A program made the position numbers and the translations under genes. The notes beneath the pieces are model-generated. The model was given only the letters and a program-made list of their open reading frames with translations, ran no database searches and had not been told where the DNA came from. A DNA stretch of 64,000 nt, from assembly GCF_016545825.1 (NCBI RefSeq), contig NC_052616.1, forward strand, positions 7,254,001 through 7,318,000. The letters run 5' to 3'. This document shows, piece after piece, positions 1 through 46,539 of this stretch. Origin of the DNA: Eucalyptus grandis. Taxonomy: Eukaryota; Streptophyta; Magnoliopsida; Myrtales; Myrtaceae. The first letter of the stretch is position 1. Every line of letters starts with the position of its first letter.

Positions 1-1640
1 ACACTCTTTTGAGAAAGAGAGAACAAATAACAAACTAATCATATATATATATATATGGAATTAGGTAAACGTATGAATTATTAAAATTTGATTGGGAAAA
101 TGATATAAATGGTTCATGAACTTTGGTTTAGTGTGTAATATCGCCCATAAATTTTTAATTTTGTTCGATGTGATTTTTAAATGGTTGGCAAATGTTTAAT
201 TTAGTCCATTATATATTCAAATGGTTAATGTTGGAAGAACTATTGGAAATCGAGTATTTCACTAAGTTCATTCGATTGTCTCTATTAATAATTAATTGCT
301 ATTTATTGAAAGAAAGTTTAATCTAAAAGTTTAGACTTATTAATGAAGGTATATCGCATTAATATAAAGAGTAGATATGACCATTGTCAAGTAATGTGAA
401 ATTATATTTTAATATTTATTTCTAAGAAAAATGAAGTAGTCTGGAATTTGTGAGATTAATATAATATTTCAAGTGTAAATCACCAGAAATTAGACCGAGG
501 TTAATTAAAAACCTAAATGGGTCGCATGTCTATGTTGTCGTATTTCATGTCATTTAGCTTTGGAGATCGCAGCTCTCAACGAGGAAGGTGGATTTGCTAA
601 ATTCATAATTCAAATTCTAAAATTAAATTGTCTCTCCGTCTGTACCTCCGGATTTAAAAAAAAAAAAAAAATTCTAAAGTTGATTGTCAGCTTGTGGGGA
701 GGTCTTCTCTTCGATAATGTCAAGTTAGACTGTTAACGACAACTCAGTTTTTACTATCTATTTTTTCGTAGATATCTCTTTCAGATTCAGTAATTTTTTT
801 TTTTTTCCTTTAATGAATGACGTTAAAGAAATAAATCTGGATGCTCAAGGACGAAAGTAAGATAAGAAAATTAATCCCTCGTGTCTATCTCTCGGATTTT
901 TTACTTGTTGGTTTTTCCTCTGCCTTTACTCGCCAATTTACGAGAATCCCCATTCAATCTTCGCCGAGTCCCTCTTTCATTCAGCAAGAAAGAGGAGCCC
1001 CTCCATCCTCTATCTCCAAATCTAGGCCAAATCTATCTCTCTTCTATCTTTCTTTACTTTCAAAATCAACTCCTTCCTCCCTTAAACTCGCCAGTCCTTC
1101 ATTCCTTTGAGTTGACCATATCCTCCATCCCCTTTCCTGGCGTGTTTCCGGTAGAGTCGCATATTTTTTTCAAGTTGATGCCTGATGCGGCATGCTATTT
1201 TTAAACAAGAACGTCCCTAATTTCTAAATTTAGTTTAATACGGAAAAGAATGAGATTGCAAGACCCAGACTTTCATACTTGCAATGTCAGATGCCAACAT
1301 AAGCATTTGCAATTTGTAACTTGATGTTCATAAGTTGAGAAGCAAAGAGAAACATAAGCTCAAATTGTATGAACTTAAATTGTTTTTCAATTTTGATTTT
1401 TCGCTTCTCAAAGATTAGAGGAAAAGTAAATGTCATGATTCAAACACAAAGAAAATCAAAGTGAACCAAGACATAAAATTTTCCTTAAAAAAAGCAAATA
1501 TAAAACTCCAGAGATTAATTAATCAAGTGCTGTCGATGAAAAAGCCATTGCCCGGGCAGGGCAATTAGCGTAAATTGGGGCTTTTTGTCGACCAACTTTA
1601 CTTTTCTTTGTGGGCCATATAGAAATGGGGTTGTTCTCAT
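1..1640. other. AT-rich stretch without a recognisable gene
   Basis: Contains an AT dinucleotide run near 41-56, A- and T-tracts near 656-670 and 790-805, and short open frames at 841-1204. Those frames have a mirror copy at 44803-45127 with a few changes but resemble no known protein and overlap in two frames. I read it as intergenic DNA shared by both arms. Confidence 0.6.
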
Positions 1641-2830
1641 AGACTTCCGGCACTTTAAGGTCTGTTTGGTAATACTTCCATTTCGAAGAACAATTTCTTT
1701 TCAGAAATAGTTTTTTTTTTTTTAAATTTCTATTCCTTGGAACAAGAGTAAAAGAACTTATTTGGTAACTATACAAAATTTCTATTCTCATAATGAAAAA
1801 AGAATAGGAATATGTTTGGTATGATCCACAAAAAGAGTTTTTCTTTTTTTCTTTTCTTATTCTTCCTTGCCATTGTGGCTGCTCACCGCTTGCCATTGGC
1901 CACCGATTGACCGCCACCTGTTGGCTGCTGGTCGCCAAAGGTTAATGGCGGTCGGGGTTGGCGATGTGCGGTTGGTGGCAGGTGGTCAATCGGCAGCCAA
2001 GGGTCGCGGTGGCAATGGTCATCGGTTGGACAACGGGGGTAGTGGCAAGGGGCAAGGGTGGCAAGGAAGAAGAAAAGAAAAAAAGAAAAGTAAAAATAAC
2101 TTATTTCTAAAAATTGTTCTTGGGAATATGAAGTTACTTTTTTTTTTTTTAATTTCTCGTTTATATTCCAAATCTATTCTTTGTCTACTTTTCTATTTCG
2201 AAGAATAGAAAAATTAATTGACGTTACCAAACGGATTTCTGTTTTTTTTTCTATATTGGGGAGCAAAAGAACAGAAAAATCAAGGAACAGGAAGATTGCC
2301 AAACAGCCCCATACGGGCTGCATAGGAATGTTTTTGTTCCTTCATTTTTTTGTTATTTTGCTCCTTGGAATTGAAAAAGAGCAGAAATTTGTTTGATAAT
2401 AACAAATAATTTTTCTATTTCGGAATAGAAAAGTATATGAGGAATAGATTTGGAAAAGAACAAGAAATAAAAAAAAAAGTAACTTATTGTTCCTAGGAAT
2501 AATTTCTAGAAATAAGTCATTTTTTCTTTTCTATTTTTCTTTTCTTCTTCTTCCTTGCTGTGGTCGTTGCCCTTGGATCCGCCACTGTCGCAGTTGGCTA
2601 TCAGCCATTGATAGCCATTGCCTGCCGATCGCCAACCCATCGCTCGTCGCCCCGGTCGACGGTTGGCAGCCAACATCGGTAGCGGTGACCAACGAGCAAG
2701 AAGAAAAAAATTAAAAAATTTAAAAAAAAAAATTGTGAATCGTACCAAACACATTCCTATTTTTGTATAGTTATCAAACGCATTGTAAAAATAGAAAATA
2801 ACTATTTTTGAAAAGAAATTATTCCTCAAA
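1640..2830. repeat. Cluster of fold-back MITE-like elements (left arm)
   Basis: Repeated GTTTGGTAA/TTACCAAAC boundaries occur in both orientations (for example 1667, 1765, 1814, 2222, 2390, 2741) beside T-rich tracts and AAATTTCTATTC motifs. The cores are self-complementary, such as ACAGCCCCATACGGGCTGC near 2303-2321. GC-rich centres (1868-2060, 2555-2700) sit between TTCTTCC and GGAAGAA arms. This is the structure of nested fold-back miniature elements. Open frames in it, including the one across 2506-3255, are not credible genes. Mirrored at about 43180-44370. Confidence 0.55.
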
Positions 2831-2943
2831 AGAGAAATGTTACCATTTGCATTCTTACTTTTCAGCCTTCCAAAGAGTGGTACAATAGTTTCAACTTTTA
2901 AAAAAGAAAGAGAGCCATTTTTCTCCTTTTCACACATGGTGTT

Positions 2944-2945
<2 letters not shown>

Positions 2946-3006
<61 letters not shown>
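2946..3006. repeat. GA microsatellite
   Basis: Uninterrupted GA run of about 61 bp. The second tandem copy has only about 18 bp (near 13405) and the right-arm copy about 38 bp of TC (43053-43090), so it is length-variable between copies. Confidence 0.95.
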
Positions 3007-3008
<2 letters not shown>

Positions 3009-3433
3009 CTATTGATAGACCAAGAGAAGAAACTATGGAAGTTACCAGGAAGATAGAGTAGCAAGTGTTCCCGAACTTTAGAGACCCCGTCCTTATCGGC
3101 CAATAGCATTTGACGTTAAGGTCTTTGTCCTGATATATTATGACTTTCTGCTTCAACCATTTTCTCATGGACCCATTAGCATTTGATTGGTTGCTTAGTA
3201 CTACTCCGTTAATGATTGACGAAGAGAGGCCCACGCACAACGTTACTGATGGCATCTCCTGCAGTTGTTACATTAGCAACTTCATTGAGTTTTTAGCTTC
3301 ATCTCAGCATCAGGAGCTAAATTCATACATTTTTCTGGACAACACGAGACAATCCAACTTTCACTTGTACTAATTATTCCATACGGACGTGTGTAATGGA
3401 CTAGTAGTGTTGTTCACACGTATCGGGGTAGTC

Positions 3434-3438
3434 TCTAC
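3434..3438. repeat. Target-site duplication TCTAC, 5' copy
   Basis: Identical to 13179-13183 directly after the 3' LTR; 5 bp is the normal Copia integrase footprint. Confidence 0.93.
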
Positions 3439-4338
3439 TGTTGGAGAAATCTTCTTGAAGTGTTTTGAAGTTGACAAATCGTTTCTATCAGTCTAGTCTG
3501 AAGGCTTGCGGACTATGCTATTTAAAGTCTGAAGACCTTGGGACAGCCACACTCAAGACTCAAAGTCTATCCTCATTGTGATCACTAATCCGTTGAAGAA
3601 AGGTTATCCAGAAATTGGATGTTTCGTTAAGGATTTAACCTTATCAACTAGAGAAGATCTCATGGCTGGAGAAGACATAAACGGAGTCCTTTGATTGATC
3701 GAAGATTGATTCGATAATTGAAGATCCGGTGATTGCCTAAATATTATTGGAAGGTTCTGCTTATGGAAACCGAGATCCTGATTGTATGGGCGAACATGAT
3801 TGATGGGCTATCAACACGTTCCTTTAATAGCTTGAACAATCTTCCTAATTGATTCCGTCTAACGGGTAGATTGGAGGAATTCCTTTGGTAAGTGCCAACG
3901 GGTATGATGGCATAAAGGAGTATATAAGGAAGACTGTCTTAGTTGTTCAAGGTGTGCACGATAGAAGAATTCCAAAGTCTGAAGCTCCTTTTTGTTTAGA
4001 CAAATCCTTTGAGCGAATACTTGTATACGAAAGAGAGTCTATATTTGTGAGAAATCTTGAGGAGGTGTGGTAGAACATCTACTTTGTGGAATCAAGGCAA
4101 AGCTGTGTTGTAACCTCTCTCTTGTTCATAGTGGAATCCAGCCAATAGGCTGTCAGTGAAGAAGAGTGGACGTAGGCTTGATATAAGCTGAACCACTATA
4201 AACCGCGTGTTCAATTTTCTCTTCTCTCGTCTTACTTTGATTATCGTTTCCTCCAACTGTCTAGTATTGTGCAATTGCTTGAGAAAAATTCTTTATATAC
4301 CTATTCACCCCCTCTAGGTACTCATACTAGCAATATCA
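3439..4338 (+). repeat. Sirevirus 5' LTR
   Basis: 900 bp, TGTTGGAG...AATATCA. Aligns end to end with 12046-13178 apart from the SINE insertion and scattered substitutions and indels. Short open frames inside (3885-4073 and 4092-4274 on the minus strand) are non-coding LTR sequence. Confidence 0.94.
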
Positions 4339-4340
4339 AT

Positions 4341-4352
4341 TGGTATCAGAGC
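4341..4352 (+). promoter_or_regulatory. Primer-binding site for initiator Met tRNA
   Basis: TGGTATCAGAGC two bases after the LTR, complementary to the 3' end of plant tRNA-iMet, the standard Copia minus-strand primer. Confidence 0.92.
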
Positions 4353-4400
4353 CCGTGTACTTACTTTATTTGAAGTGTTTTACTTCGTAGTAAAAGATCC

Positions 4401-7400
4401 ATGGCTAGTATGCTAGCACCAGGGCTGATGGAAGGGCAAAGCAATACCATACCACCCTACTTTGATGGAAAGGATTACAACATCTGGAAGAACAAGATGA
4501 AAGCTTTCCTTCGATCAAAGGATCCTACGGAATGGGACGTTGTAGAAAAAGGAATTACTCTTACCACTTTGCATCGGTCTCGAAAGAGGAAAAGAAACCG
4601 ATGAAACCAGCGGAATGTCTCAGGAAGAAATAATCAAGAGACAAGCACTCGATGCAAAAACAATTTACTCGTTATATTGTGCTTTATCACCAACTGAATA
4701 TAATAGAATATCTTCTTGTGGTACAGCAAAAGAAGTTTGGGACAGATTGTATATCACCTATGAAGGAACCAATCGAGTGAAGGAAACAAGAATCAACATT
4801 CTTCTCGGTCAATACGAAGCCTTCGTAATGAAACCAGGAGAATCTATATCGACATGTTTAGTCGTTTACGAGATATTGTGAATGGTCTTGAAAATCAAGG
4901 TCAACCAACTTCGATCCCATGAAGGTAAACAAGCTACTGCGTGGACTCTCCAGGGATTGGAATCACATAAAGACTTCGATAAGAGAGACGCAAAGAATTA
5001 TGCCACTATTTGTCGACGAGCTAATTGGAACTCTTTAGTCTTATGAAGTGGAACGGATCAATGAAGATGAAGATCCAAAAGGTAAGAAATCCATTGCATT
5101 AAAATCAAATGATGATTCGATGATACAGATTCTGAAGAAGATATGGACGATGAGGAGCTTGCTCTCATGATAAGAAGATTAAGAAAACTGAATAGAAAAG
5201 GAAGAAGGTTCAACTCAAAGAAACAAAGCTTTCAAAGACAGCGAGACCAAGTCTCGTTGATGATGAGGAACCAAACAAAGACATAGTCTCGCTTTGAATG
5301 TAAGAAAAAGGGACACATCGACTCCAACTGTCCTCTTCGAAGAAGAAAAAAGGAAAAGCTGAAAGATTTCGAAAAGCTCTCAAAGCCGAAACTTGGAGTG
5401 ACACGAGTGTGAAGAAAGTGATAATGAATATGCCAATCTATGTCGATGGCACAATCGACTCGGACTACTGGATCGACTCGACACGGTGAATTTGAGGCAA
5501 GTAATTTTAAAATTCTTGTCAAAGTTTCTAAATACATTGATGAACGTGTTTCGTCTTAAGACTTCTCTCAAAAGAATTTCCGAACTGAAAAGGAAAACTC
5601 AGCTCTAAAGCAAAAGGAAAATGTTTTAGTAGAAAGAGTTAAAAGTCTAGACTTGACTGTTTCCACTCTTAAAGAAAATGAAGATAATCTTTTAAAAGAA
5701 AATCCTCTTTTAAAAACAGACTTATCAAATATCTCAAAGAAATTTTCAATAGGGTCTGAAAAACTTGAGAAAATTCTTTCAGCTCAAAGACCTTACTTCA
5801 ATAAGTCCGGTCTAGGTATGACAGCAGAAACAATTCCCTTGATTGATTTTCCTAAAGTAAAAGAAAGAATTAAGAAAAGACTCTCGAAAGAGGTTTACAA
5901 AAATCACTTCAAGAAAGTTTTTGTAAAATCGTAGGTAGAAATACTCTCGATGTTCAAAATGCAACAGTCCGGATCACTTTGAAAAGAGTGTCCTATGGTT
6001 TGGAAACCTGTTAAGAAATTATGGGCTAATCTGCTTATGTTACTAACACCAAAGGACCCAAGAAAGTTTGGGTACCAAAGAAAGCTTGAGACTCTTTTTT
6101 AAATGCAGGTCACCGTCAAGAAAAAGGTAAAGTGGTATCTTGACAGTGGATGCTCAAGACACATGACAGGAGACTCAAATTGTTTTATAAAGATTGCTCA
6201 AGTAAATGGTGGAAAAGTTTCATTTGGAGGAAACAAAGCAAAGGGAGTATTGTGGGATTTGGAACTATGAAAATTGGAAATCTCACAATAAGTAATGTTT
6301 CCTTAGTGGAAGGACTCAATTACAATCTTCTCAGCATTAGTCAATTGTGTTATACTAGTTTCAAGATCTTCTTTCAAGAAGGAATATGTTCTGGAATCAG
6401 TAAAGACTCTACTCAGTCCTTCATGGGTCGTAGACATGGAAACATTTATCTTCTGGATGTGAAACCAAATGAATCGCAATGTTTTATCTCAATTCAAGAC
6501 GAAGCAAGCTTATGGCACGAAAGCTTGGTCATGTCAACATGAAGCAATTAGCCAAAATCTCATCAAAACAGCTTGTTCGAGGACTACCCAAATTACCTTA
6601 TCAAAAGACTCGATCCATGCACTCCATGTATTCGGGAAAGCAGGTAAGAAATTCATTTAAGCCAATAAATCATGTCTCTACTAATCATGTACTACGCTTG
6701 CTGCATATGGATCTTTTCGGACCAACCGAACACGAGTATTGGAGGTAAGTAATATTGCCTAGTAATTGTGGACGATTACTCCCGTTTTACTTGGGTATAT
6801 TTCCTTGCAAGTAAGTCTGAAACCTTCTCGTATTTTGAAAAGTTTGCTAAAAAGGTTCAAAATGAAAAAGGATGTGTTATCTCAAGTATAAGAACAGATC
6901 ATGGAGGTGAATTCGAAAATCAAGATTTTACAAAATTTTGTGATGAATCTGGCTTTAATCATGTGTTCTCCTCTCCATATACTCCTTAGCAAAATGGAGT
7001 TGTGGAAAGAAAGAACAGATCTCTTCAGAAATGGCTAGAACTCTTTTAATTGAAAGCAAGATTTCTTCACGATTTTGGGCTGAAGCTGTTTCAACAGCTT
7101 GTTATATCATCAATAGAGTCTTCTTAAGACCTATTCTAGAGAAAACCCCTTTCGAATTGTTCAAAGATAAGAAGCCTATTGTTTCATACTTTCATGTATT
7201 CGGTTGCAAATGTTTTATATTGAAAATGCAAATGATCGAGTTGGTAAGTTTGAAGAAAGATCAGATGAAGGTATCTTCCTTGGATATTCTACATCAAGCA
7301 AAGCCTTGAGTCTATAACAAGAAGAGCGATCGTGGAGGAGTCAATGAATGTCAAATTTCAAGACTCAACGCAAGATGAATCAAGTCGACTCATCAAGAAG

Positions 7401-9174
7401 AGTCCGAAACCTCCCGATCTTCCAAAGCTTACAACTCAAGAAGCATCTCGGACTACGGAAAACCAGCTTCAGGATGTTCGTGAAGATCCAAACAAAGAAA
7501 GAGATCATCAACCGGACGAGATCAACGAGTAACCGGAAGCATAAGTCCGGTCATCCCAAAGATCTTATAATCGGCGAAATGAATGAAGGAATTCGCACCA
7601 GATCCAAAAGGCGAGAAGAGTCTAGTGCTGTGGCTCTTGTTTCTGAAATTGAACCAAAAAGCATAGAAGAAGCTTTATCTGATGAAAGCTGGATTGAGGC
7701 TATGCAAGAAGAGCTCAGACAGTTCAGCATTAATGATGTCTGGGAATTGACATCCAAACCAAAAGGTAAAACTATTATTGGAGCTAAATGGGTGTTCAGA
7801 AACAAGATGAATGAGAAAGGAAAAGTCGTACGAAACAAAGCAAGACTCGTGGCCAAGGTATACGCAAGAAGAAGGAATAGACTATGATGAGACTTACGCT
7901 CCAAAAGAGTAGCAAGGTTAGAAGCTATTCGACCGTTACTTGCGTTTGCTTGTTATAAGAATTTCAGGTTATTCCAAATGGACGTCAAAAGCGCCTTCCT
8001 AAATGGATTTATCCAAGAGGAAGTTTATGTGGAACAACCACCAGGGTTTGAAGACCCAAAGAAACCGGACTCGAGTCTTTAGACGAAAAAGGCTTTGTAT
8101 GGTTTAAAGCAAGCACCTCGAGCTTGGTACGACAGATTAAGTAAGTTCCTAATACAAAATGGTTTTGCCAAAGGTAAAGTAGATACGACTTTATTTATTA
8201 AAAGGAGAACAAAAGTTTCTTACTTGTTCAAATATATGTGGATGACATTATTTTCGGATCTTCTAATGAAAATCTGCAAGAAATTTTCTAAGTCTATGCG
8301 GGATGAATTTGAAATGAGTATGATGGGAGAGTTAACATTCTTTCTTGGTCTTCAAGTAAAACAATTGAAGGAAGGAACTTTTATTTATCAAGAAAAATAT
8401 GTTAATGATCTTGTCAAAAGATTTGGACTGGAAAAGTGCAAAAAGACCGACATACCGATGTCAAGTTCTTTGAAGATAGACAAAGATGAAGAAGGGAAGA
8501 AAGTTGATCAAAAGCTGTACGGGAGCATCATTGGTTCACTTCTTTATCTTACGCTTCTAGACCTCCGACATTTTGTTGAGTGTTTGCATCTGTGCAAGGT
8601 TTCAATCAGATTCTAAAGAATCCCATCTTAGTGCTGCGAAACGCATCATTAAATATGTTGCTTCATCATCAAGCATCGGTCTTTGGTATCCTAAGAAGGA
8701 GACTTTAATCTTCCGGGGATATTCGAGACGCAGATTTGGCTAGTTGCGAGTTGATAGAAAGAGCACTTCGGGGAACCCGCCGTTGCTTGGAAGTAGGACA
8801 AAGTGTCTTGGTTTTCAAGGAAACAAAGCACTTTGTGTCTCTTTCAAACAACGAAGGAGTATGTAGCCACGGGAAGCTGCTGTTCGCAAATTCTATGGAT
8901 AAAACAACAGCTAAGAGACTTTGAAATTGAAGACTCATGCACGGAGATTAATTGCGACAACACCAGCGCTATCAACCTTACCAAAAATCCAATTCTCCAC
9001 TCAAGAGCAAAGCATATAGAGATTCGACATCACTTTATTAGAGACCATGTTCAAAATGGAGATGTTTCAATTCAATTTGTCGACTCAAAGAATCAAGCGG
9101 CGGATATATTCACAAAGCCTTTGGAGAAAAATCAATTTGAGTCTATACACCAGACTCAACATTTTGAGATATGA
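4401..9174 (+). pseudogene. Sirevirus gag-pol, degenerate
   Basis: Gag begins at 4401 (MASMLAPGLMEGQ) with a UBN2-type segment to about 4880. Zinc-knuckle remnants lie near 5293-5335 and 5950-5990, the first lacking its opening cysteine. A protease motif DSGCSRHMTG is at about 6141. GAG-preintegrase follows at about 6460-6660. The integrase core has VDDYSR (about 6765) and RTDHGGEFEN (about 6895), then a stop TAG at 6987-6989, then QNGVVERKNR. Reverse transcriptase spans about 7650-8600; the YVDD codons are at 8235-8246 but lie out of frame with the flanking ORF, and another TAG interrupts near 8080. RNase H spans about 8730-9170 and ends in the usual FTKPLE tail. No intact polyprotein is possible, so the element is non-autonomous now. 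The overlapping partial ORFs between 4401 and 9174 are pieces of this one pseudogene. Confidence 0.93.
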
Positions 9175-9559
9175 GGATATCAAAGTCTAAAGACTTTCAG
9201 ACTCAGACTAACAAGACTTTATCTGAAAGATAGTCTTGGTACGTCCGTCAGACTGTAAGTCTTTCTCTATTGAATCTCATCTTGAAAAGGTACGATCGTC
9301 GGATTTGTGTTTAAATTGTTGCTATATTTAATTGACGTAAATATTGCATCGTTTCATTTTCAAAAGGGAAGTTATTTTTGAAATGGCTATTTTTGCGGAA
9401 AAAGACAATTATTTTGAAAAGGCATATTTTTATTTCCTTTATGACGGTTCGCTTATCCCTCTTTTTAACCGATCGTGAACTGTCGATTCCTCTTCACTTT
9501 TCTCAAACCCTAGAAAGCATCGATCCTCCATTCCCGTTTGTCTTCTTCGTTTAATCCTC

Positions 9560-11560
9560 AAAAAGTTGTCATCTTTCATGGGAAAGTCAAGCAAGAAATC
9601 TTCCAAAAACTGAGAAAGATGTCATCTTCAAGAAAGTCTTCGAGAATTGCAAGTAGGGGACCACGGCGGATGAGTGAGGGGCCTACGCACTTCGATCTTG
9701 CGAAGATGAAGTGACTCCGAACAGCAAGCGAGCCCACAACATTCTCAACAACGTCATTCTCCTCCATCTAGTCCTCAAGGCGTTGATCATCAACAACATG
9801 AAGAAATCATCGAGGATGCAGACTCGTAAGAGTTCAAAAGCCCGCTTATATTTACCGTTTATATCGTGCCCTAAAAGGAATTCGTACTCCTTTGAACTAC
9901 ATTGATGATTTTCTTAAAGACAAAAGGACATGGGAACGAATATATCTTTTGAAAAAAATGGAAAGTTTGGGAATTGCTCGAAAAGGGGTGGCCGAGGAAA
10001 CCCTTGCAAATATCCCAAGTGATCCTCGTGATGGGGCCGAATCTCGTAGATGGGAATGATGATGATATATTATACAGTCAATTCCAACCGAAAATGGGTG
10101 TTGCGGTTGATAATCAAGGAAAAATGGGAGATTTGTTCAGATCAAAGGAGCAAAAGGATATGTACTCGAAATTGCTGAAGCGTGGGGTAATAAACCCTAG
10201 GAGTGTAGATTTTGATTTTCTGGATGCTGTGAATATGAACTTGAGGGAAAAGTTCAGTTATCTTCAACTTGAAAAGTTCGCCCGACTCTATAGAAGCCTA
10301 TGCTGAATTAACTGCATATTTCTATTCAAATCTAAGCTTTTGGATGCGAATAGATTCTCGTTCAGCGTTAAAGACCAAGATTATGTTGTGGATATGAATA
10401 TGCTTTGGCGAGATGTGTTAGAAGTCGAAAGAGGAAGATATCAACCAATCAAAATTTCCATTGCTCGGGCCACTCTTGAACCGGTGAAGGACGGGAGAAC
10501 AGATGAAAAGATCACATACTTAAGGATGGGTGCATTCAACATCTTGATTCACAAGATTGTGATTAATTGCCTCCGACCGAAATCAACTTCCAAGACCGAT
10601 GTTTCAAGTTCGAGGCCAAGCCGATGTATGCCATTCTCTTTGGAAAAAGGTTTTCTCTCTCACACCGTGATGTTTCACATGTATAGAGCAATGATGAAGG
10701 ACAGAGGTCAACTCCCTTACCCAAGCCTTGTTACGAAGTTATTCAGACATCTGAATATTCAGCCTCCACAAATCTTTTGTGTTCGACCATGCGATCATAT
10801 GGTGGTAGGTCTGAAAATGGTAACCAAATTGCGTCTGAAAGAACTGAGCAAGGAGTTGGAGAAATTCAAGGAGAAGACTCCTGCAAAATCTCATCAAATA
10901 TCTTCTGTAGCTAAAAGAAAAGGGAAGGAGCCCATGGTTGCTCCATCCAAGAGAAGAAGAGCTCTCCTTGTTGAGGATGAAGATGATGAGGAAGACATCA
11001 CCATCTCTGCATTGGCTTTGAAGAATTTAAGTCGTCTGTTCCACGAAAGAATCGGAGAAAATGACGAAAGAAGCGAGAGGAGAAGGAAGAAGAAGAAATA
11101 GAAGCTGAAAAAGAAACGAGAGGAGGAAAGACCTGAAGAAGAAAGAAGAGAAGAAGGAGAACTCGAAGAACACTCTTCTCCACCCGTAGGCATGGAAATA
11201 AGGGGAGATCAGGAGAAAGGTGTGAAGTCTTCATGTCCTGATGCAAGTAAAGGAGTCAGTCGCTCACCAGCAGACCCAGAGGATGTTTATGCATCTCAAT
11301 TTCCAGAAGAAGGTCATGAAGTTTCATCGCCAAACCTGCAAAACTATGCTGATCTACCATCGTCTGCATTTACTCCATCAGATCGAGCCGAAGCAAGTAC
11401 TCAAACTGATAATGGAGCAGATTTTTGCAGAATCATGGATATTCTTTTGGAGATGCGAGGTCAGATTTATGCCTTGGGATGCGAAGTTCAAAGCTTGAAG
11501 AATGAAGGTCAAGCTTCTTCCTGTTCATTGAATGATAAAATGCAAGCCCTCTCTATTTAG
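9560..11560 (+). pseudogene. Sirevirus post-pol (env-like) ORF region, broken
   Basis: Open segments at 9974-10306, 10340-11101 and 11192-11560 lie in a consistent order with frameshifts near 10305-10345 and a stop at 11099-11101. The 10340-11101 part (253 codons) has a globular N-terminal region and a highly charged tail with a lysine/arginine cluster (KRKGKEPMVAPSKRRR) and an acidic run (EDEDDEEDI). The last part contains heptad-like sequence (residues about 70-115). Sireviruses of the SIRE1/Maximus type carry such an extra ORF, sometimes called env-like. I see no convincing signal peptide or membrane segment here, so an envelope role is not supported by the sequence. Confidence 0.7.
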
Positions 11561-11698
11561 AATCAGGCCAATGCCAAGAGTGAGGAGATTGCACAGCTAA
11601 AGGAAGACTTTAAAAGGTGGAAGGCATCGTTCGATCTATGGAAGATTTCCAGCTTGTCCGCGTTCCCAAGCAATCTTAACTTCATCTCATCCTTTTTA

Positions 11699-12045
11699 AT
11701 GATGACAAAAGGGGGAGAGATGCAAGATTTGATCAAAAACCTTTCATTCATTAAACTTTTAATTGTTTGTTGGATTGTTTTGTGGTTTGAATCTGTTTGA
11801 CTTTGGTTTGTGTCTGGATGAGAACTGAACTAGACTTGGACTTGACTGCTTCTATTAACCAATATTGATATCTTATAAATGGCTTCATCATATACCGACT
11901 AACCTATTTTCTCGTGGTTGCAGATTCTAGTGTTATTCTGTTAGCCATTTATCTCTATAAGATATGCATATGTGTTTGAGAAATGTTTTGTGTCAAAGAT
12001 ATCCAAATCTACAGGAAAGTTTTGTCACCATCAAAAGGGGGAGAT
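11699..12045 (+). promoter_or_regulatory. Sirevirus polypurine tracts
   Basis: The functional tract AAAAGGGGGAGA (12033-12044) ends one base before the 3' LTR. A second copy, ACAAAAGGGGGAGA, lies near 11704-11717. Multiple identical tracts upstream of the 3' LTR are characteristic of Sireviruses. Confidence 0.85.
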
Positions 12046-13178
12046 TGTTGGAGAAATCTTCTTGAAGTGTTTTGAAGTTGACAAATCGTTTCTATCGCCT
12101 AGTCCGAAGGCTTACAGACTATGCTATTTAAAGTCTGAAGACCTTGGGACAGCCAAACTCAAGACTCAAAGTCTATCCTCATTGACGGTCACTAATCCGT
12201 TGAAGAAAGGTTATCCATAACTGGATGTTTCGTTAAGGATTTAACCTTATCAACTCGGAGAAGATCTCATGGTGGAGAAGACATAAACGGAGTCCTTTGA
12301 TTGATTGAAGATTGATTCGATAATTGAAGATCCGGTGATTGCCTAAATATTATTGGAAGGTTCTCGCTTATGGAAACCGAGATCCCGATTGTATGGGCGA
12401 ACATGATTGATGGGCTATCAACACGTTCCTTTAATAGCTTGAACAATCTTCCTAATTGATTCCGTCCAACGGGTAGATTGGAGGAATTCCTTTGGTAAGT
12501 GCCAACGGGTATGATGGCATAAAGGAGTATATAAGGAAGACTGTCTTAGTTGTTCAAGGTGTGCGCGATAGAAGAATTCCAAAATCTGAAGCTCCTTTTT
12601 GTTTAGACAAATCCTTTGAGCGAATACTTGTATACGAAAGAGAGAGTCTATAACCACCGCCCGCGGTGGAAGCGGTGGTTAAGGCTTGGTACCCCAAACG
12701 CAGGGGGAAGAGTTCGAGACTCCGTGGAAGCGTTGCTTCAATGCAAACGCGCGGTTTAACCGCGTTTGGGGGTCAGCGGTGGGATCCCCGGCGCTCCAGG
12801 GTTTACTCTCCCCGCGAAGCGGCGTCCGGAGGTTCCCTAGGTCATCAAAAAAAAAAAGAAAAAAAAAAGGAGAGAGTCTATATTTGTGAGAAATCTTGAG
12901 GAGGTGTGGTAGAACATCTACCTTTGTGGAATCAAGGCAAAGCTGTGCTGTAACTCTCTCTTGTTCATAGTGGAATCCAGCCAATAGGCTGTCGGTGAAG
13001 AAGAGTGGACGTAGGCTTGATATAAGCTGAACCACTATAAACCGCGTGTTCAATTTTTCTTCTCTCAGTCTTACTTTGATTATCGTTTCCTCCAACTGTC
13101 TAGTATTGTGCAATTGCTTGAGAAAAATTCTTTATATACCTATTCACCCCCCTCTAGGTACTCATACTAGCAATATCA
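12046..13178 (+). repeat. Sirevirus 3' LTR, interrupted by a SINE
   Basis: TGTTGGAG...AATATCA, 1,133 bp. It is 233 bp longer than the 5' LTR, almost all of it explained by the SINE and its duplicated target (12640-12882). Confidence 0.94.
12653..12869 (+). mobile_element. tRNA-derived SINE inside the 3' LTR
   Basis: About 217 bp, flanked by a 13-bp direct repeat GAGAGAGTCTATA (12640-12652 and 12870-12882). Pol III A box-like TGGTTAAGGCTTGG at 12676-12689 and B box-like AGTTCGAGACTCC at 12711-12723, about 35 bp apart as in tRNA. The body is GC-rich and ends in an A-rich tail (12847-12868). The 5' LTR keeps the empty site (near 4030-4045), so the SINE landed after the retrotransposon. Confidence 0.9.
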
Positions 13179-13183
13179 TCTAC
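13179..13183. repeat. Target-site duplication TCTAC, 3' copy
   Basis: Matches 3434-3438. The following CACATGATGTACGG continues the pre-insertion sequence seen uninterrupted at 13868 onward. Confidence 0.93.
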
Positions 13184-13243
13184 CACATGATGTACGGATG
13201 TAGAACTTGGCCTTATAGATTGGTGTCAATGGTGGAATAGAGA

Positions 13244-13928: not shown

Positions 13929-14748
13929 CTGTAATTTTAACGCTTTTTTTTTTTTTTGCCCCCAAACCAATATGAAAACCAAACATGATCACTTAACTAA
14001 TCATTATTCAATGATTTAAATTTGCGTTGTTCTATAAATTCCTTGAAAAAAATCCGACAAAATTTATCTTTAGCAATGTACTTTATTCTAGAAACAAGAC
14101 GGAAGACAATCATGCATACAATCACATCACTTGATTTTAGAAACAGTATCTTTAGCAATGCTAAAACCTCTATTTCCCCGATTGAGCAGTCTAACCAGGC
14201 CTTTGACGCCACATTGCGGGTTGGACTTGGATATGGACATATATAATCCTTTGGGGAAAAAATTCTAACTTCCTCTCTCTCTCTCTTCCTGTTTTCCGGT
14301 TGTGCTTTTATGTCATCGTATGAATAAGGTTGCTAAGCTCATGCTAAGAGTGAAGTCAAGTAAATAAATTAGACAGAGCTAAAAATTACCATTCCCAAAA
14401 TATTATTTATTTTCCTCAGCAAACGGAGAAGCTCGCTACTCCATTTTCTTGCAACATGGGTTTAATTTTGCTGGGTGGTATTCAGCCTTTCTCACTTCAA
14501 AAACTAGCTCAAATATGATACTTTCCCTCACACTTATAAAGTGGCTACCTGCCTCTTCCACAACCGATGTGGGATAAACCCCAATGATCTCTCCCTCACA
14601 CATCGGGTTTTGGTCGGAGGCCACTACAACCCTCTTCGAGTGATTGTTGGGTCCAAACTTATTGGTAACCTTGGCTCTCTCAGACTTGTTGATAACCTAG
14701 CCTCCGATACCAGTGTTAGGTGGTTTTGAGCCTCTCACATCCCAAAAG
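13929..14748. other. No gene recognised (left arm)
   Basis: AT-rich sequence mirrored at 41713-42540. Short frames at 13997-14246 exist on both strands and are kept in the mirror only because the DNA is duplicated. A CT run lies near 14273-14287. Confidence 0.5.
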
Positions 14749-15878: not shown

Positions 15879-15944
15879 ACGTTCTTCTCATCCGATAGCC
15901 AACATCATCTATAGAGCCCTATTATCCGAGAAAGCTGAGTTACT

Positions 15945-16854: not shown

Positions 16855-20008
<3,154 letters not shown>

Positions 20009-29081: not shown

Positions 29082-29140
<59 letters not shown>

Positions 29141-31810: not shown

Positions 31811-34800
31811 ATGATATTTCTGGCAAAAGCAAGATTTTTGTCTCTCTTTCTTGTGTTTCATTATGTTGTAGAATTTTGCATTGGAGGAGATGTCATCACA
31901 GCATCTGAGTATATCCAAGACCCTGGAAGTATAACATCAAGTGGAGGTCTCTACAGAATGGGATTCTTTAGCCCTAATGGTTCTGCAAATCGCTATGTGG
32001 GGATTTGGTACAATAATGTTCCTAGATATAGTGTTCTCTGGGTAGCGAACAGGAAGAATCCGATTTTAGACTCTTCTGGTGTCATGACCATATCCGGTGA
32101 TGGTAATCTTGTGGTCATGAATGGAAAGAGGGAATTAGTTTGGTCATCAAACGTTTCCAACTCTGTAACCAATGCAAAAGCTCAGTTGTTAGATTCTGGG
32201 AACCTTGTCTTGCTCAAGCAGAGCTCTAATTCTAGTGCAAATGATGCAGAGAATCTATGGGAAAGTTTCCAGCACATGACGGATTCATTCTTAGAGAAAA
32301 TGAAGCTCAGCACTAACTCAAGAACAAATGAGAAGCAGGCACTAACATCTTGGAAAAGCCCTTCTGATCCATCAATTGGAAGCTTCTCGGCAAGTCTTGA
32401 TCCACGAAACATTCCTGAACTTTTCATTTGGAATGGCAGTTCTCTGTACTGGCGGAGCGGTCCATGGAATGGTAATATATTCACTGGAGTACCTGAGATG
32501 CAATCAGTCTATAGTAATGGGTTTAACCTGGTGGACGATCATGAAGGAACATTCTATCTGACTTACAGATTTGCTGAGGCGTCTTATATGTCATATTTGT
32601 TATTGAAATCAAATGGGGATTTGGTGCAACCATACTGGGATCAGAGTAGCAGTTCCTGGGGGATTGTTTGGTCATCTCGGTTGAGTGATTGTGATGTCTA
32701 TGGCCAGTGCGGACCATTTGGAATCTGCAATGCCAAGAAATCACCAATTTGTAGCTGCTTGAAAGGTTTTGAGCCTAAAAACTTTGAGGAATGGAGCAGA
32801 GGAAATTGGTCCAGTGGATGCATTCGGAAGTCATTGCTGCAGTGCAATGGAACTACAAATGGTAGCAGTACAGCCGGCAAAAAGGATGGCTTTTTAAAGC
32901 TGGAAATGATGAAAGTGCCAAGTTCTGGAATTTTTTTTTCTACCCTCGAAGAGGATTGCCCAGGAAATTGCTCAATGAATTGTTCATGTGTAGCATATGC
33001 ATATGACTCTGGTGTCGGCTGCGTGTTCTGGATAGGAGAACTAATTGACCTGCAGAAGTTCTCCATTGGAGGAACAACTCTTTATGTTCGGCTGGCCCAC
33101 TCAGAACTTGGTAAATTAACTTTACTCTTAGATGATGGTTCTTATCAATTTGGTACTGCAACTTATGTTTAGATGGATCAATACACTTGGCTTGAGTCAT
33201 TCTTCAAGACTTGATGGTTTCATTAACAAACCAACACGCACGCACCCGTACACGCTCAAATATAGGCTCGAGCAGTGTCTAATGTGGAACCCTGATAAAA
33301 GAACAGATTTAGCATATCATTTTTTCTATGACAAAGTCTCATTATTAGCTATAAAACAAGGGTTCCAAAAAGATTCGTTTAGTTGTTGTTTACTAGCAGC
33401 ATCAACATAGTCTGAGGGATCAGCTTATGTCTCCATTCTGATCTCCAGAGAAAAAGGGACATCTGAGAGAAATCATAGCAACTACAGTCATCATAGGAAC
33501 ACTCGTTGTCATCATCATAATATGGTTTGCCAGGAGGAAGGCAAAAAAACAAGGTAACGAGTAGTGCAGCTGTTGAATCTTGGAATTGCCAATTATTTCT
33601 GAGTTTGCATGGAATAAATACCAATGATTTATGGATCAGCAGTAAAGCAAAGCATGGAAAAACATTTGTCCAGTGGAGAAGCCCCTTCAGTGGTGATGCT
33701 TGGAGAGAACTCGAGCAGAGTTGAGTTCCAGGAGTTTGTGAAATATAAAATTGAAGAATTGGCTGCAGCAACTGGAATCTTTTGTGAGGCCAATAAGCTT
33801 GGACGGGGTGGTTTCGGGCCAGTATATAAGGTATATGTATTCATGTAAAGTATTATATATGTAGTTGTGTGTGCGCGTGTTGATTTTAGCAGCTCATTTA
33901 GTCCCTGTGTACAGGGGAGACTACCAAACGGTCAGGAAATAGCAATCAAGAGGCTATCGAGAGCCTCAGGACAAGGGCAGCAGGAATTTATGAACGAAAT
34001 GGAGGTCATTTGTAAGGTCCAACATCGAAATCTTGTTAGACTGCTCGGATGCTGTGCTGAAGGAGATGAGAAAATGTTAATCTATGAATTCATGCCAAAC
34101 AAGAGTCTGGACACATTTATTTTTGGTAATATTTCGTTTATTTCAATGTTGCCTCAAACTATCATTTGTAACATATATCTAGAAAGCCTCATTTGTATAG
34201 TCAGCTGTTAGCCATTGGAACAGGATTGGACTGTTCTTGCTGCAGAGGCTATAAGTTTTCTCGTTTGCCTTTGATCTTCTATGCATTTCACTCTTTTCCA
34301 GTTGCAAAAATGATTTTTTTTTTTTTGCATTAAACTTCTATGTCTATTCAGATCCACTGAAACAAGTACACTTGGATTGGAGAACACGGTTCAACATTGT
34401 TGATGGAATTTGTCGAGGTCTGCTTTATCTCCATAGGGACTCTAGACTAAGAATTATTCATAGAGATTTGAAGGCAAGCAATATCCTGCTGGATAAAGAG
34501 CTCAATCCAAAAATTTCAGACTTTGGAATGGCTCGGATATTTGGGGGAAATGAAAATCAAGCTAATACACGAAGAGTTGTGGGAACCTAGTTAGTACTTC
34601 ATTAATTTTGACATTCCTAGTGATTTTATTCTCTACTCAGAATAAGCAAACTTAACCTGTTTGATTGAATGCAGTGGTTATATGGCTCCTGAATATGCAA
34701 TGGAAGGGCGATTTTCGGAAAAATCAGATGTCTTTAGCTTTGGCATATTATTACTAGAGATTGTAAGTGGAAGACGGAACACGAGTTTTCATTATGAAGA

Positions 34801-35222
34801 TCAATGCTTGAGCCTTCTAGGATTGGTAAGCTTTCATTGATATAGAAGTTGGAACCGCATTCTATTCTCATAAATTGGAACTCCAATAATTAATTGACTT
34901 GATTAATTTACAGGCATGGAAGTTATGGAATGAAGAGGATGTTCTAGCACTAGTGGACCCAACCATGCCTGCTACACCCTTTGAGGTTCAGCTTTCAAGG
35001 TGCATAAATGTGGGGCTTCTCTGTACACAAGAAAGGGCAAAAGATCGGCCTTCCATATCAACAGTTATTTCTATGATCAACAGTGAAATTGTGGATCTTC
35101 CTCGTCCAAAGCAACCTGCATTCACCGCGAGGAAAATAACCCAAGACACGGATTCCTCTGGACAAAGCCAAAAGACATGTTCTGCCAACGATGTCACTCT
35201 TACTGTTCTTCAAGGAAGATGA
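31811..35222 (+). CDS. G-type lectin S-receptor-like serine/threonine kinase A
   Basis: Plasma-membrane receptor kinase of the S-domain (SD1) family; ligand unknown. Predicted exons: 31811-33110, 33449-33553, 33640-33830, 33915-34125, 34352-34586, 34675-34825, 34914-35222, total 2,502 bp, about 833 residues, with phases that join correctly. Domains: signal peptide (about 1-24), bulb-type lectin (about 27-180), S-locus glycoprotein and EGF-like region with [20 protein letters not shown] (about 292-311), PAN (about 350-430) and membrane segment [20 protein letters not shown] (about 443-462). The kinase has [11 protein letters not shown], catalytic lysine in [16 protein letters not shown] (about 637), DFGMARIF (about 658) and [20 protein letters not shown]. 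Two oddities: the 5' splice site after 34586 reads CT, not GT, and the juxtamembrane region needs an 86-bp intron absent in B. If intron 34587-34674 is retained, the frame stops in the kinase after VVGT. It is the only kinase here without a frameshift. Confidence 0.88.
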
Positions 35223-36455: not shown

Positions 36456-39400
36456 ATGATACTTCCAGGAAAAGTAAGAATATTCTCTCTCTTTATTTTC
36501 TCTCATTATGCTGTGAAATTTTGCGTTGGTGGAGATGTCATTACGGCATCTGAGTACATCCAAGACCCTGGAAGTATCATATCAAGTGGAGGTCTCTACA
36601 GACTGGGATTCTTTAACCCCAATGGTTCTACCAATCGGTATGTCGGAATATGGCATGACAAGATTCCTGCATATAACGTCTTTTGGGTTGCGAACAGGGA
36701 GAAGCCTGTTGCAGATTCTTCTGGTGTCATGACCATATCTGATGACGGTAATCTTGTGATAATGAATGGAAAGAAGGAAGTACTTTGGTCATCCAACGTT
36801 TCCACCTCTGGAGCTAATGCAAAGCCCAATTATTAGATAGTGGAAATCTTATCTTGCTCAAACAAAGTTCTAATACGAGCACAAATGATACAGCAATGGT
36901 ATGGGAAAGTTTCCAGAACATGTCTGATACACTCATGGCGAAAATGAAGCTTAGCACCAATGTGAGAACAAATGAGAAGCAGGTACTCACATCTTGGAAA
37001 AGCCCTTCTGATCCATCAATTGGAAGTTTCTCAGTTAGTTTTGAACCACTAAATATTCCTGAAGTTTTCCTTTGGAATGGCAGTACTCTTTATTGGCGGA
37101 GTGGTCCATGGAATGGTAAGGTTTTCATTGGAATTCCCCAGATGGCATCTGTCTATCTTGATGGATTTAGCATAGGGGATGGCGAAGAAGGAACTGTCTA
37201 TCTGACTTACAATTTTGCAGAGGTGTCTTATTTGTCCTACTTTTTTGTGAAGTCAAATGGGGTATTGTTGCAGCCATACTGGGATTTAAAATTTAAGTAT
37301 TGGCGAATCGATTGGTCAACCCCGGATTCCGATTGTGATGTTTATGGCAAGTGTGGGCCGTTTGGATTCTGCGATACCAAGAAATCACCAATTTGCAGCT
37401 GCTTGAGAGGCTTTCAGCCTAAAAGAGTCGAAGAATGGAGCAGAGGGAATTGGTCCAGTGGATGCATCCAGAGATCATTGCTGCAATGTGACAGGATAAA
37501 AAATGGCAGTACTAAAGTGGGAAAAATGGATGGATTTCTAAAGCTTGAGAATGTGAAAGTGCCAAATTATGCAATCTGGTCATCATCTTTGGAAGACAAG
37601 TGCCGAGAGCAGTGCCTCAGTAATTGCTCGTGTGCAGCATATGCTTATGATGCGGGAGTTGGTTGCATGTACTGGAGGGGAGACCTAATCGACATACGGA
37701 AGTTTTCCTATGGAGGAAAAACTCTTTTTGTCCGACTGCCCCGTTCAGAACTTGGTAAGTTCATTCCTAAATTTAGTTCTTGATTAATCTGGTAATGTGA
37801 CTTACTGCTAGATGGTTAGGGAATTTCAATCTATGTGATATGCGAGGTGGAGTTGTGATCTATGAAAGGTAGCAAAACAGTACTTTCTTTAATGTCTGTT
37901 CAATCTCTTAAATCATTGTATGTCCGTATTTTGATCTGCAGAAGGAAAACGAGATCTGAGAGCAATTATAGCGGCTGCAGTTGTTGTGGCAACAGTTATT
38001 TTCAGTATTGGTACTTTCTTCGCCTGGAAGAAGTCAAAAACGAAGAGGTAAAGACGGAGAACAATTTTCAGAGGCTTCTACTGAGAACATGCTTGGAAAG
38101 AGCTTGAGCAAAGTTTATCTCCAGGAGCTTGTGCTATATAAATTGGAAGAGCTGGCCGCAGCAACAAGCAACTTTAGTGACGCGAACAAGCTCGGAGAGG
38201 GTGGTTTTGGGGCAGTATATAGGGTAATACTTTGTCATGAAGAGGCAAAAGCTCCTTTTTTTCTTCTTCTTTAATTTCAGCAGCTCATTTAAGTCCTTTT
38301 GTACAGGGGAGATTGCTAAATGGAAAAGAAATAGCAGTCAAAAGACTATCCAGGGCCTCGGGACAAGGATTGCAGGAATTTATCAATGAAATGGTCGTGA
38401 TTTCTAAGGTCCAACATCGAAATCTAGTTCGACTCCTTGGATGCTGTGCCGAGCAAGATGAGAAACTATTAATCTATGAGTTCATGCCAAATAAGGGTCT
38501 AGATACATTTCTTTTCGGTAATATTCCATTTCTTGCAACATTCCCTCGATCTATCATCGAATGCCAGTTTATAGGAAGTCTAATTTTTAATTTTAGCTGT
38601 TTAAACAGCATCTGGCTGTACCTATTGCACGTACTTCACATTTTCGGTTTACATAGGAACATCTTCCTGTGCATTTCACTCTTCTCCATTCATAAAACTA
38701 ACACATTATTTTATGAATTTCACTTCTCTTTTCTACTTCAGATCCGCTCAAACGAGAGCAACTGGATTGGAGAAGACGGTTCAACATTATTGATGGAATT
38801 TGTCGAGGGCTACTGTACCTTCACCGTGACTCTAGACTACGGATAATTCATAGAGATCTTAAGACAAGTAATATCCTGTTGGACGAAGAGCTCAATACAA
38901 AAATTTCAGACTTGGGAACAGCCAGGATATTTGGGGAAAAGAAGATCAAGCAGACACACTAAGAGTTGTGGGAACCTAGTTAGTATTTCTTATATTATGA
39001 GTCTCCTAATGATTTTTATCTTTATACCTAGCATAAGAAATATGAAGGTGTTTCATTGAATGCAGTGGTTACATGGCTCCGGAATATGCGATGGAAGGGC
39101 GGTTTTCAGAAAAATCAGATGTTTTTAGCTTCGGAGTAGTATTGCTGGAGATCGTAAGTGGAAGACAGAACACTAGCTTCAATGAGGAAGATCAATCCTT
39201 GAGCCTGTTAGGATTGGTAAGCTGTTACAAACAGAGAGATCACCCTATTTCCATCAACTCAAATTCCAAAATAATTGGCCTTGAATTCTGTTTTTTTGGC
39301 AGGCATGGAAATACTGGGAGGAAGACAATGTACTTGCACTAGCGGACCCTAAAATTTCTGTTGGACCCTTTGGGGTTGAGATCACAAGGTGCATAAACGT

Positions 39401-39611
39401 GGGGCTGCTCTGTACACAAGAATTCGCACAAGACAGGCCTACCATTTCAACTGTTATTTCAATGATTAACAATGAAATTGTTGGTCTTCCTAGTCCAAAC
39501 AAACCTGCATTCACCGAGAGGCAAACAACCACCGACACAGGTTCCTCCAGACAAAGCCAGAAGAAATATTCTGCCAACCATGTCACTCTTACCTCTCTGG
39601 AAGGCAGATAA
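36456..39611 (+). pseudogene. S-domain receptor-like kinase B, right copy, frameshifted
   Basis: Same architecture as the left copy. Exons 36456-37754, 37942-38223, 38307-38517, 38742-38975, 39066-39216, 39303-39611. Lesions relative to the left copy: one A missing at about 36821 in the lectin domain, two A missing at 38036-38040 just after the membrane segment (leads to TAA), and one G missing at about 38933 after the kinase activation-loop start. In addition DFG reads DLG (38909-38917). None of these is shared with the left copy, whose own lesions are absent here. Exon 4 again meets a CT instead of a GT donor (38976-38977). The last three lesions sit in or near homopolymers, so some could be consensus errors. 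The C-terminal exon is intact and identical in protein to the left copy. Confidence 0.9.
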
Positions 39612-43050: not shown

Positions 43051-43092
<42 letters not shown>

Positions 43093-43180: not shown

Positions 43181-44370
43181 CTAGAATAATTTCTAAGTAA
43201 AACAACACGTTTGATAATTATACAAAATTTCTATTCTTGGAATAAAAAAAAATAGGAATGTGTTTGGTACGATTTACAATTTTTTTTTAATTTTTAATTT
43301 TTTTCTTCTTGCTTTCGGTTGCTTCTTTGCCACTATTGGCTGCTGACCATCGACCGGGGTGACGAGTGATGGGTTGGCGGTCGGCAGGCGATGGTAGTCA
43401 ATGGCTGACAGCCAACTGCGACAGCGGCAAATCCAAGGGCGATGACTGCAGCAAGGAAGAAGAAGAAAAGAAAAATAGAAAAGAAAAAAAATGACTAATT
43501 TCTAGAAATTATTCTTAGGAACAATAAGTTACTTTTTTTTTTAATTTCTTGCTTCTTTTCCAAATATATTCCCGTCTACTTTTCTATTCCATGAAATAGA
43601 AAAATTATTTGATATTATCAAACGGATTTTTGTTCTTTTTCAATTCCAGGGAGCAAAATACCAAAAAAATCAAGGAACAAAAACATTACTATGCAGCCCG
43701 TATGGGGCTGTTTAGCAATGTTCCCGTTCCTTGATTTTTCTATTCTTTTACTCCCTAGCATAGAATAAAAAATAGAAATCCATTTGGTAACGTTAATTAA
43801 TTTTTCTATTCCTCGGAATAAAAAAGTGGACAGGGAATAGATTTGGAACAAAAACAAGAAATTAAAAAAAAAAAGTAACTTCATGTTCCCAAGAACAATT
43901 TTTAGAAATAAGTTATTTTTTCTTTTCTTTTTTTTCTTTTCTTCTTCCTTGCCGGCCCTCACCCCTCGCCACTACCCCCTGTTGTCCAACCAATGACCAT
44001 CGCCACCACCGACCCTCGGCCGCCGATTGACCACCTGCCACCAACTGCACACCACCAACCCTTGACCGCTGTTAACCTCTGGCGACCAGCAGCTGACAGG
44101 TGGCGGTCAATCGATGGCCAAAGGCAGGCGGTGAGCAGCCACAATGGCAAGGAAGAATAAGAAAAGAAAAAAAGAAAAAAATCTTTTCTGGATCATACCA
44201 AACATATTTATATTCTTTTTTTCATTCTGAGAATAGAAATTTTATGTAGTTATTAAACACGTTATTTTACTCTTGTTTCAAGGAATAGAAAAAAAAAAAT
44301 TATTTCTAAAAAGAAATTGTTCTTCGAAATAAAAGTATTACCAAATGGACCTTAAAGTGCTTGAAATCTA
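43180..44370. repeat. Cluster of fold-back MITE-like elements (right arm)
   Basis: Mirror of 1640-2830, with the same GTTTGGTA/TACCAAAC boundaries and self-complementary cores (GCAGCCCGTATGGGGCTGTTTAG near 43695). Confidence 0.55.
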
Positions 44371-46539
44371 TGAGAACAACCCCATTTCTATATGGCCCAC
44401 AAAGAAAAGTAAAGTTGGTCGACAAAAGCCCCAATTGACGCTAATTGCCCTGCCCGGGCAATGGCTTTTTCATCGACAGCACTTGATTAATTAATCTCTG
44501 GAGTTTTATATTTGCTTTTTAAGGAAACTTTTATGCCTTGGTTCACTTTGATTTTCTTTGTGTTTGAATCATGACATTTACTTTTCCTCTAATCTTTGAG
44601 AAGCGAAAAATCAAAATTAAAAAACAATTTAAGTTGAGACAATTTGAGCTAATGTTTCTCTTTGCTTCTCAACTTATGAACATCAAGTTACAAATTGCAA
44701 ATGCTTATGTTGGCATCTGACATTGCAAGTATGAAAGTCTGGGTCTTGCAATCTCATTCTTTACCGTATTCATATAAATTTAGAAATTAGGGACGTTCTT
44801 GTTTAAAAATAGCATGCCGCATCAGGCATCGACTTGAAAAAAATATGCGACTCTACCGGAAACACGCCAGGAAAGGGGATGGAGGATATGGTCAACTCAA
44901 AGGAATGGAGGACCGGCGAGTTTAAGGGAGGAAGGAGTTGATTTTGGAAGTAAAGAAAGATAGAAGAGAGATAGATTTGGCCTAGATTTGGAGATAGAGG
45001 ATGGAGGGACTCCTCTTTCTTGCTGAATGAAAGAGGGACTCGGCGAAGATTCAATGGGGATTCTCGTAAATTGGCGTGTAAAGGCAGAGGAAAAACCGAA
45101 AAGTAAAAAAATCCGAGAGATAGACACGAGGGATTAATTTTCTTATCTTACTTTCGTCCTTGAGCATCCAGATTTATTTCTTGACATAACGTCATTCGTT
45201 AAAGGAAAAAAATTACTGAATCTGAAAAAGTTATTTATGAAAAAATAGATATTAAAAACTGAGCTGCCGTCGACAGTCTAACTTGACATTATCGAAGAGA
45301 AGACCTCCCCACAAGCTGACAATCAACTTTAGATTATTTTTTTTTCTTTTTAAATCCGGAGGTACAGACGGAGAGACAATTTAATTTTAGAATTTGAATT
45401 ATGAATTTAGCAAATCTACCTTCCTCGTTGAGAGCTGCGATCTCCAAAGCTAAATGACATGAAATACGACCACATAGACAAGCGACCCATTTAGGTTTTT
45501 AATTAACCCCGGTCTAATTTTTGTGATTTACACTTGAAATATTATATTGATCTCAGACTACTTCATTTTTCTTAGAAATAAATATTAAAATATAATTTCA
45601 CATTACTTGACAATGGTCATATCTACTCTTTATATTAATGTGATATACATATACCTTCATTAATAAGTCTAAACTTTTAGATTAAACTTTCTTTCAATAA
45701 ATAGCAATTAATTATTAATAGAGACAATCAAACGAACTTAGTGAAATACTCGATTTCCAATAGTTCTTCCAACATTAACCATTTTAATATATAATGGACT
45801 AAATTAAACATTTGCCAACCATTTAAAAATCACATTGAACAAATTTAAAAATTTATGGGTGATATTACACACTAAACCAAAGTTCATGAACCATTTATAT
45901 TATTTTCCCAGTCAAATTTTAATAATTCATACGTTTACCTAATTCCATATATAATTACTCATTGCTATTTTATCTATGATTAGTTTGTTATTTGTTCTCT
46001 CTTTCTCAAAAGATTTTTTTTTTATTACATTTTGAAAAGAATTCAATGATTTTACAAATGATTTGATAAATAATAAATTGTCTCGTTATGTATGATTAAT
46101 AGGAGAAATTGTCAGTTTCCTTCTTCTTATTTTTTAATGATTCTCTTAAAAATGACAAAAGTATCATTTACTCAATAACACTCAAACAAAAAGAATCCAC
46201 TCATATTTGTTGTCTTAACACGTGCGCATTCTACTATTTAAGATGAAATGAGCGTATAATAAATATGTGATGTGTGGCTCCTTGAGGAATTTACGATAAT
46301 TCTCTTCGTTGATCTCGGCACACTTAATGGACCACGAATTGTCTCAATTCAACCTCCTCATTTCTCGGGTCCTTCTTCATATCAAGCTTTCATGAAGTAT
46401 TTCTCGGTCTATGGCAGCAGCGGAGATCACGGGCTGAAGGCCCCGGGAAAAATGAATATTTCTTTCTGCAATAAATGTGTTCACATTACTTTATGAAAAT
46501 CTATGTTCTTCGAAATTTCTTTCTTAACAACTTGTAGAA

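Follow-up and report, generated by a model that had tools for sequence, protein, structure and literature searches.

Two long inverted arms around a 127-bp spacer on Eucalyptus grandis chromosome 5 point to an inverted duplication of a receptor-kinase locus

We analysed a 64,000-nucleotide window of E. grandis chromosome 5 (7,254,001-7,318,000 of the 62,829,834-base sequence C5, in a genome of 616.5 Mb and 36 sequences), which carries a large palindrome holding G-type lectin receptor-like kinase genes. Coordinates are given in window numbering, with negative values or values above 64000 denoting flanking DNA from the same genome. Chaining of self-matches (the best collinear chain from matches of more than 100 columns, up to 120 of them) revealed long inverted arms on either side of an unpaired 127-bp spacer (25855-25981), which ends in a (CT) run (25953-25981). 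Chained, the inverted matches lead from the first position of the window up to the spacer and out again, the in-window right part reaching 46013; the longest extends over 6,765 columns at 98.5% identity, so the palindrome is not a product of chance. The original prediction had described a 46-kb palindrome. Its inverted arms and spacer stand, but its end at 46,006 merely reflected the edge of the window: comparison of flanking DNA extends the homology from -4042 to 49591. The left arm thus spans -4042 to 25854 (from position 1 within the window; 29,897 bp), the right arm 25982 to 49591 (23,610 bp), and the whole palindrome 53,634 bp.

Palindrome and flanks contain no undetermined base (N) from -109,999 to 75060, and the sole N run in the 274 kb examined is a scaffold gap of 100 N at 75061-75160. 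The right flank itself (50193-75060) recurs at 87972-112933 in direct orientation and 97% identical (444 substitutions in 24,690), with its first copy ending exactly at this gap. The twin flank is probably an unpurged haplotype overlap, and we used it below as an allele-like pair. Between the gap and the second copy, the start of the next contig (75161-87971) is a 12.8-kb repeat-rich segment with direct repeats resembling long terminal repeats (LTRs; 75393-75800 and 82148-82528); it shows no homology to the palindrome arms.

Two receptor-kinase genes, here called A and B, were recognized from pieces of the Pfam families B_lectin, S_locus_glycop, PAN_2 and kinase. Both are directed away from the palindrome centre, starting ~5.8 kb from the spacer. 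Gene A is present in both arms (left copy 16858-20008, minus strand; right copy 36456-39608, plus strand), and its exons match the E. grandis protein EUGRSUZ_E00546 (P0014) almost perfectly, e.g. at 310/311 residues in the right copy and 159/160 in the left. In this assembly, exon 1 carries frame shifts in the left copy and a frame shift in the right. We do not take these as proof of pseudogenes, given that 16 of the 19 indels separating the arms over 14718-20120 are 1-2 bp long, many of them in homopolymers; with 8.9 one-base indels per kb, the allele-like pair likewise has the look of an error-rich draft. The arms also differ by 4 bp at 19264, outside any homopolymer, and the frame shifts may be real or sequencing errors. 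Gene B (31811-35219, plus strand) is confined to the right arm. Its exon 1 lies in one open frame, 99.8% identical over 435 residues to the NCBI Eucalyptus protein P0186, and its exon pieces, matched piecewise rather than as a spliced model, lie in open frames that match this protein. The left arm retains the last exon of this gene (21841-22146, minus strand; 100% identical to P0186 residues 733-834), so the absence of the rest from that arm represents a loss. The locus is therefore duplicated head to head, as had been proposed, but incompletely: both genes are present in the right arm, whereas the left has gene A and no more than the final exon of B. Among the 62 candidates scored out of 4,897, the nearest relatives cluster on chromosome 4 (14.09-14.33 Mb); identity is 82-84% in the longer matches, which resemble gene A, and 63-66% in the remainder. 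The final protein search found 7,160 proteins, of which 120 were listed.

The outer ends of the arms distinguish the original from the copy. A search with 48600-50700 returned 42 matches, of which 23 were copies of a dispersed repeat ending at query positions 987-993 and nine were copies of a second element whose matches begin at 990-995; the two sets meet at the end of the right arm. Three of the 23 listed repeat copies and three of the nine second-element copies were fetched. All three repeat copies match the left arm up to query 740-742, i.e. ~100 bp past the boundary at 643 and to the end of the fetched sequence, whereas along the right arm they match no further than 642, which corresponds to 49591. 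All three second-element copies share 200 bp of upstream sequence (97-98% identity) that is missing at the joint. The left arm hence runs unbroken through the dispersed repeat into its own flank, ~100 bp beyond -4042, whereas the right arm breaks inside this repeat and meets internal sequence of another element at three base pairs, TTG (49589-49591), common to the broken repeat and to the truncated element beyond. This argues that the left arm is the parental one and the right arm its inverted copy.

Flanks were compared at several thresholds: matches of at least 250 bp in one comparison, at least 600 bp in a wider one (60 of 92 matches listed), and, at finer resolution, 120-150 bp or more in one and 80 bp or more in another. 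Inverted matches of at least 80 bp between -40000..-4043 and 49592..164000 were short scattered repeats, the longest being 533 bp at 82% identity. The wider comparison yielded 24 inverted and 41 direct matches; two of the inverted matches, 2,591 and 1,897 bp long at about 84% identity, both fall in a single repeated element of the adjoining contig.

Each arm has also acquired changes of its own. Segments of at least 500 bp restricted to the left arm within the window measure 10,473 bp (2765-13237) and 593 bp (21150-21742), and those restricted to the right arm 4,039 bp (30795-34833) and 1,136 bp (27744-28879); smaller in-window gaps range from 8 to 39 bp, and the extension adds left-only gaps of 122, 329 and 23 bp. 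The largest segment contains a copia-type LTR retrotransposon (3439-13178, plus strand; 9,740 bp) with LTRs at 3439-4338 and 12046-13178 that differ at 26/896 sites, a TCTAC target-site duplication and pieces of RVT_2. It sits within, and splits, the first copy (2785-3438) of a 714-bp tandem duplication, the second copy of which begins at 13244. The right-only 1,136-bp segment is a solo LTR on the minus strand, with TG..CA ends and an ATCGA target-site duplication. The 4,039-bp segment holds most of gene B, and we read this offset, with a 3-bp TGA microhomology at the scar, as a putative left-arm deletion that removed most of the gene. The left-only 593-bp segment is either an insertion or a right-arm deletion. 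Thus, the claim that every offset reflects a discrete insertion or deletion applies to most of the large ones, not to all. A second, inverted copy of the copia element lies outside the palindrome at -21217..-11709 (96% identical over 9.3 kb), and its LTRs differ at 37/901 sites.

Outside these segments the arms are similar rather than identical. Directly outward of the spacer, 86 bp are identical in both arms, after which the first difference occurs. The in-window arm alignment contains 415 substitutions in 14,614 columns (2.84%), and the extension a further 195 in 3,544. Together with the one-arm segments of at least 500 bp in both arms, this contradicts the original prediction that the arms match over their whole length. 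Divergence is lowest over 14718-20120, a stretch covering gene A and its 3′ side, with 15 substitutions in 5,388 columns and 19 indels; just inside it, 20106-21149 has 53 substitutions in 1,002 columns. Arms generated by one event should otherwise differ evenly throughout, and this contrast would fit a genuine palindrome in which, as in those of sex chromosomes, continuing gene conversion between the arms preserves their similarity and has recently affected gene A. We regard this reading as rather unlikely and dropped gene conversion as the headline, since substitutions in the allele-like pair are just as unevenly spread. Their variance-to-mean ratio is 16.3 in the allele-like pair and 15.6 in the palindrome arms; the longest substitution-free run is 2,064 columns in the allele-like pair versus 1,273 in the arms; and 12 of the pair's 49 500-column windows carry no substitution. 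Comparing 26 such windows from the arms with these 49, leaving out incomplete windows and the extension outside the 64-kb window, gave no distinction in divergence (Mann-Whitney p = 0.22). Uneven arm identity of this kind thus does not demonstrate conversion. Moreover, a parental arm exchanging with chromosomes lacking the copy could yield the same mosaic, and short-read polishing could even out near-identical stretches. Nor are the arms near-identical along their length, as expected of a converting palindrome: besides the overall divergence, one window reaches 17 substitutions in 98 columns. It is doubtful that this autosomal palindrome of an outcrossing tree has had gene A homogenised by recent conversion while the rest of the arm drifted; if it has, the palindrome would provide a plant system in which to study such conversion away from sex chromosomes. 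Near the centre, transitions outnumber transversions 83:20, versus 211:101 elsewhere in the arms (p = 0.012). This central transition excess, from a single test, hints weakly at methylation, as expected of methylated repeats.

Taken together, the anatomy probably reflects a real inverted segmental duplication of the receptor-kinase locus on chromosome 5. As read from the assembled bases, there are two inverted copies, a spacer between them and arm-private changes; the copies lie a short spacer apart, the outer joint links one of them to unrelated sequence over a microhomology, and the other keeps the parental flank. From these features and from known models of inverted duplication (PMC10766186), into which fold-back, synthesis and end joining fit, we infer fold-back, repair synthesis, the order of events and any effect on expression. 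In such a scenario, a break would have opened on the right-hand side of the parental arm, and the broken strand would have folded back near the present spacer, perhaps by pairing of CCCCTCT with AGAGGGG beside the (CT) run. Repair synthesis may then have produced an inverted copy, running outward along the arm for about 24 kb, before the new end was joined, via TTG, to internal sequence of an unrelated transposon across the break. Later, the left arm would have gained the tandem duplication and the copia insertion and lost most of gene B, and the right arm would have gained the solo LTR. The outcome would be extra G-type lectin receptor-kinase gene copies arranged head to head.

A rival reading is an assembly artefact, in which two haplotypes of one locus were joined in a hairpin, for instance via a folded nanopore read whose return path came from the other haplotype. 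Several observations weigh against a real duplication and on the side of this scenario. E. grandis is highly heterozygous (2.1% according to PMC10460159), and the arm divergence is allele-like, as expected of two haplotypes joined in this way. If the assembly is that of PMC11146599, as seems likely, it is a pseudohaploid nanopore draft: that report describes a 615.89-Mb E. grandis assembly from nanopore reads, built with Canu, Purge Haplotigs, Racon and Pilon and scaffolded on the E. grandis reference. Fold-back reads account for ~0.55-0.6% of genomic reads in nanopore sequencing, and breakpoints lying within 200 bp serve to flag them (PMC12870357), a range into which the 127-bp spacer falls. 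No third copy of an arm appeared among the candidates scored (40 of 962; 62 of 4,897). This corner of the assembly also holds a duplication of its own, namely the twin right flank that abuts the gap. The second contig differs to the left of the shared point matching 50193, starting just 12.8 kb away, and the joint at 49591 lies between two repeated elements; this joint may be part of local assembly trouble, and a fold-back at the spacer combined with a chimeric joint at 49591 would together mimic a palindrome.

Despite these points, we consider the artefact unlikely. Were the arms two haplotypes, their outer flanks should be alleles, yet the 36 kb to the left and the 114 kb to the right have only short scattered repeats in common, and the wider 106 kb contain no inverted match of at least 600 bp except the 84% element of the adjoining contig. 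Unlike the left arm, the right one terminates at a non-homologous 3-bp joint, so a second artefact would be needed. A single folded read would leave arms identical save for errors; instead, each arm has its own insertions flanked by target-site duplications, and substitutions set in 86 bp from the spacer. Hence, while an inverted copy starting within 200 bp recalls the nanopore fold-back artefacts described in PMC12870357, the E. grandis arms depart from them by their substitutions, private transposons and unrelated outer flanks. The adapter sequences tried matched the spacer no better than they matched shuffled sequence, leaving an adapter origin of the spacer without support. We also dropped the second contig as proof of a haplotype lacking the palindrome, as it starts only 12.8 kb to the left of the shared point and its own joint lies inside a repeated element. 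If the structure were an artefact after all, it would expose a trap in nanopore drafts of heterozygous trees, in which two haplotypes could pass for a palindrome.

As for consequences, the original prediction held that the layout is prone to hairpin formation, instability and silencing. While instability is plausible, silencing does not follow from the layout: since the genes point outward from starts well away from the spacer, their mRNAs would be same-sense and form no duplex with one another. Fold-back would take a transcript that runs through the centre. Small RNAs from such a transcript might silence the G-type lectin kinase genes in cis and in trans, as in VIM4-VIM2 of Arabidopsis Cvi, which we deem very unlikely here. 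VIM4-VIM2 is likewise arranged head to head, has a short intergenic region and varies in structure (PMC13213937); the chromosome 4 paralogues, among the 62 candidates scored out of 4,897, would be possible targets. However, the VIM4-VIM2 and PAI4-PAI1 inverted repeats of Arabidopsis Cvi are ones that make small RNAs (PMC13213937), the E. grandis arms are far longer than those Arabidopsis repeats, the genes start ~5.8 kb from the spacer, and gene B is mostly unduplicated, only its last exon being kept in the left arm.

A real inverted duplication of this form has partial counterparts. Interstitial inverted duplications attributed to fold-back, template switching or origin-dependent inverted-repeat amplification (ODIRA) share the short spacer, the inverted copies and the non-homologous microhomology joint (PMC10766186); the present case differs in having one inverted junction and no inverted triplication, in being plant nuclear and in having arms that diverged long ago. 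By comparison, the Salix purpurea palindromes W.P1 and W.P2 have ~20-kb arms with private indels and retrotransposons, but are situated on a sex chromosome, with arms >99% identical on average, reported conversion and a spacer of 2.6-3.6 kb (PMC7023750), compared with 2.8% substitutions, 127 bp and chromosome 5 here. For W.P1, which spans ~42.7 kb, the same source gives a 2.6-kb spacer in its text and 3.6 kb in a table. The assertion that such plant palindromes are rarely described thus meets a precedent of similar span, albeit one with a longer spacer. Among the results listed, our literature search found no report of this E. grandis locus. A further study (PMC4689423) is reported to treat interstitial inverted duplications arising by fold-back, template switching or ODIRA. 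The locus looks like an inverted duplication of an ordinary kind, though large, and its joins reveal which of the two copies came first. If it is real, parental arm, copied arm and joining sequence can be told apart within a single genome, and fold-back duplication models become testable base by base. It would also show a receptor-kinase cluster gaining inverted copies and then losing part of one.

We discarded the idea that a special element forms the palindrome centre: close to the spacer, about 2.5 kb of either arm (23.0-25.7 kb in the left arm) consist of an old dispersed repeat, with about 67-69% identity over a longer stretch in 5/5 fetched loci. Copies of the segment 23011-25698 and its right-arm mirror occur on many chromosomes at about 70-81% identity. 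Searches of the window returned no named RNA family at the gathering threshold and, using the bacterial code, no tRNA. Finally, a 500-bp stretch at 43451-43952, mirrored at 2066-2558, matches its own reverse complement at about 80% identity, in the manner of a fold-back or miniature element.

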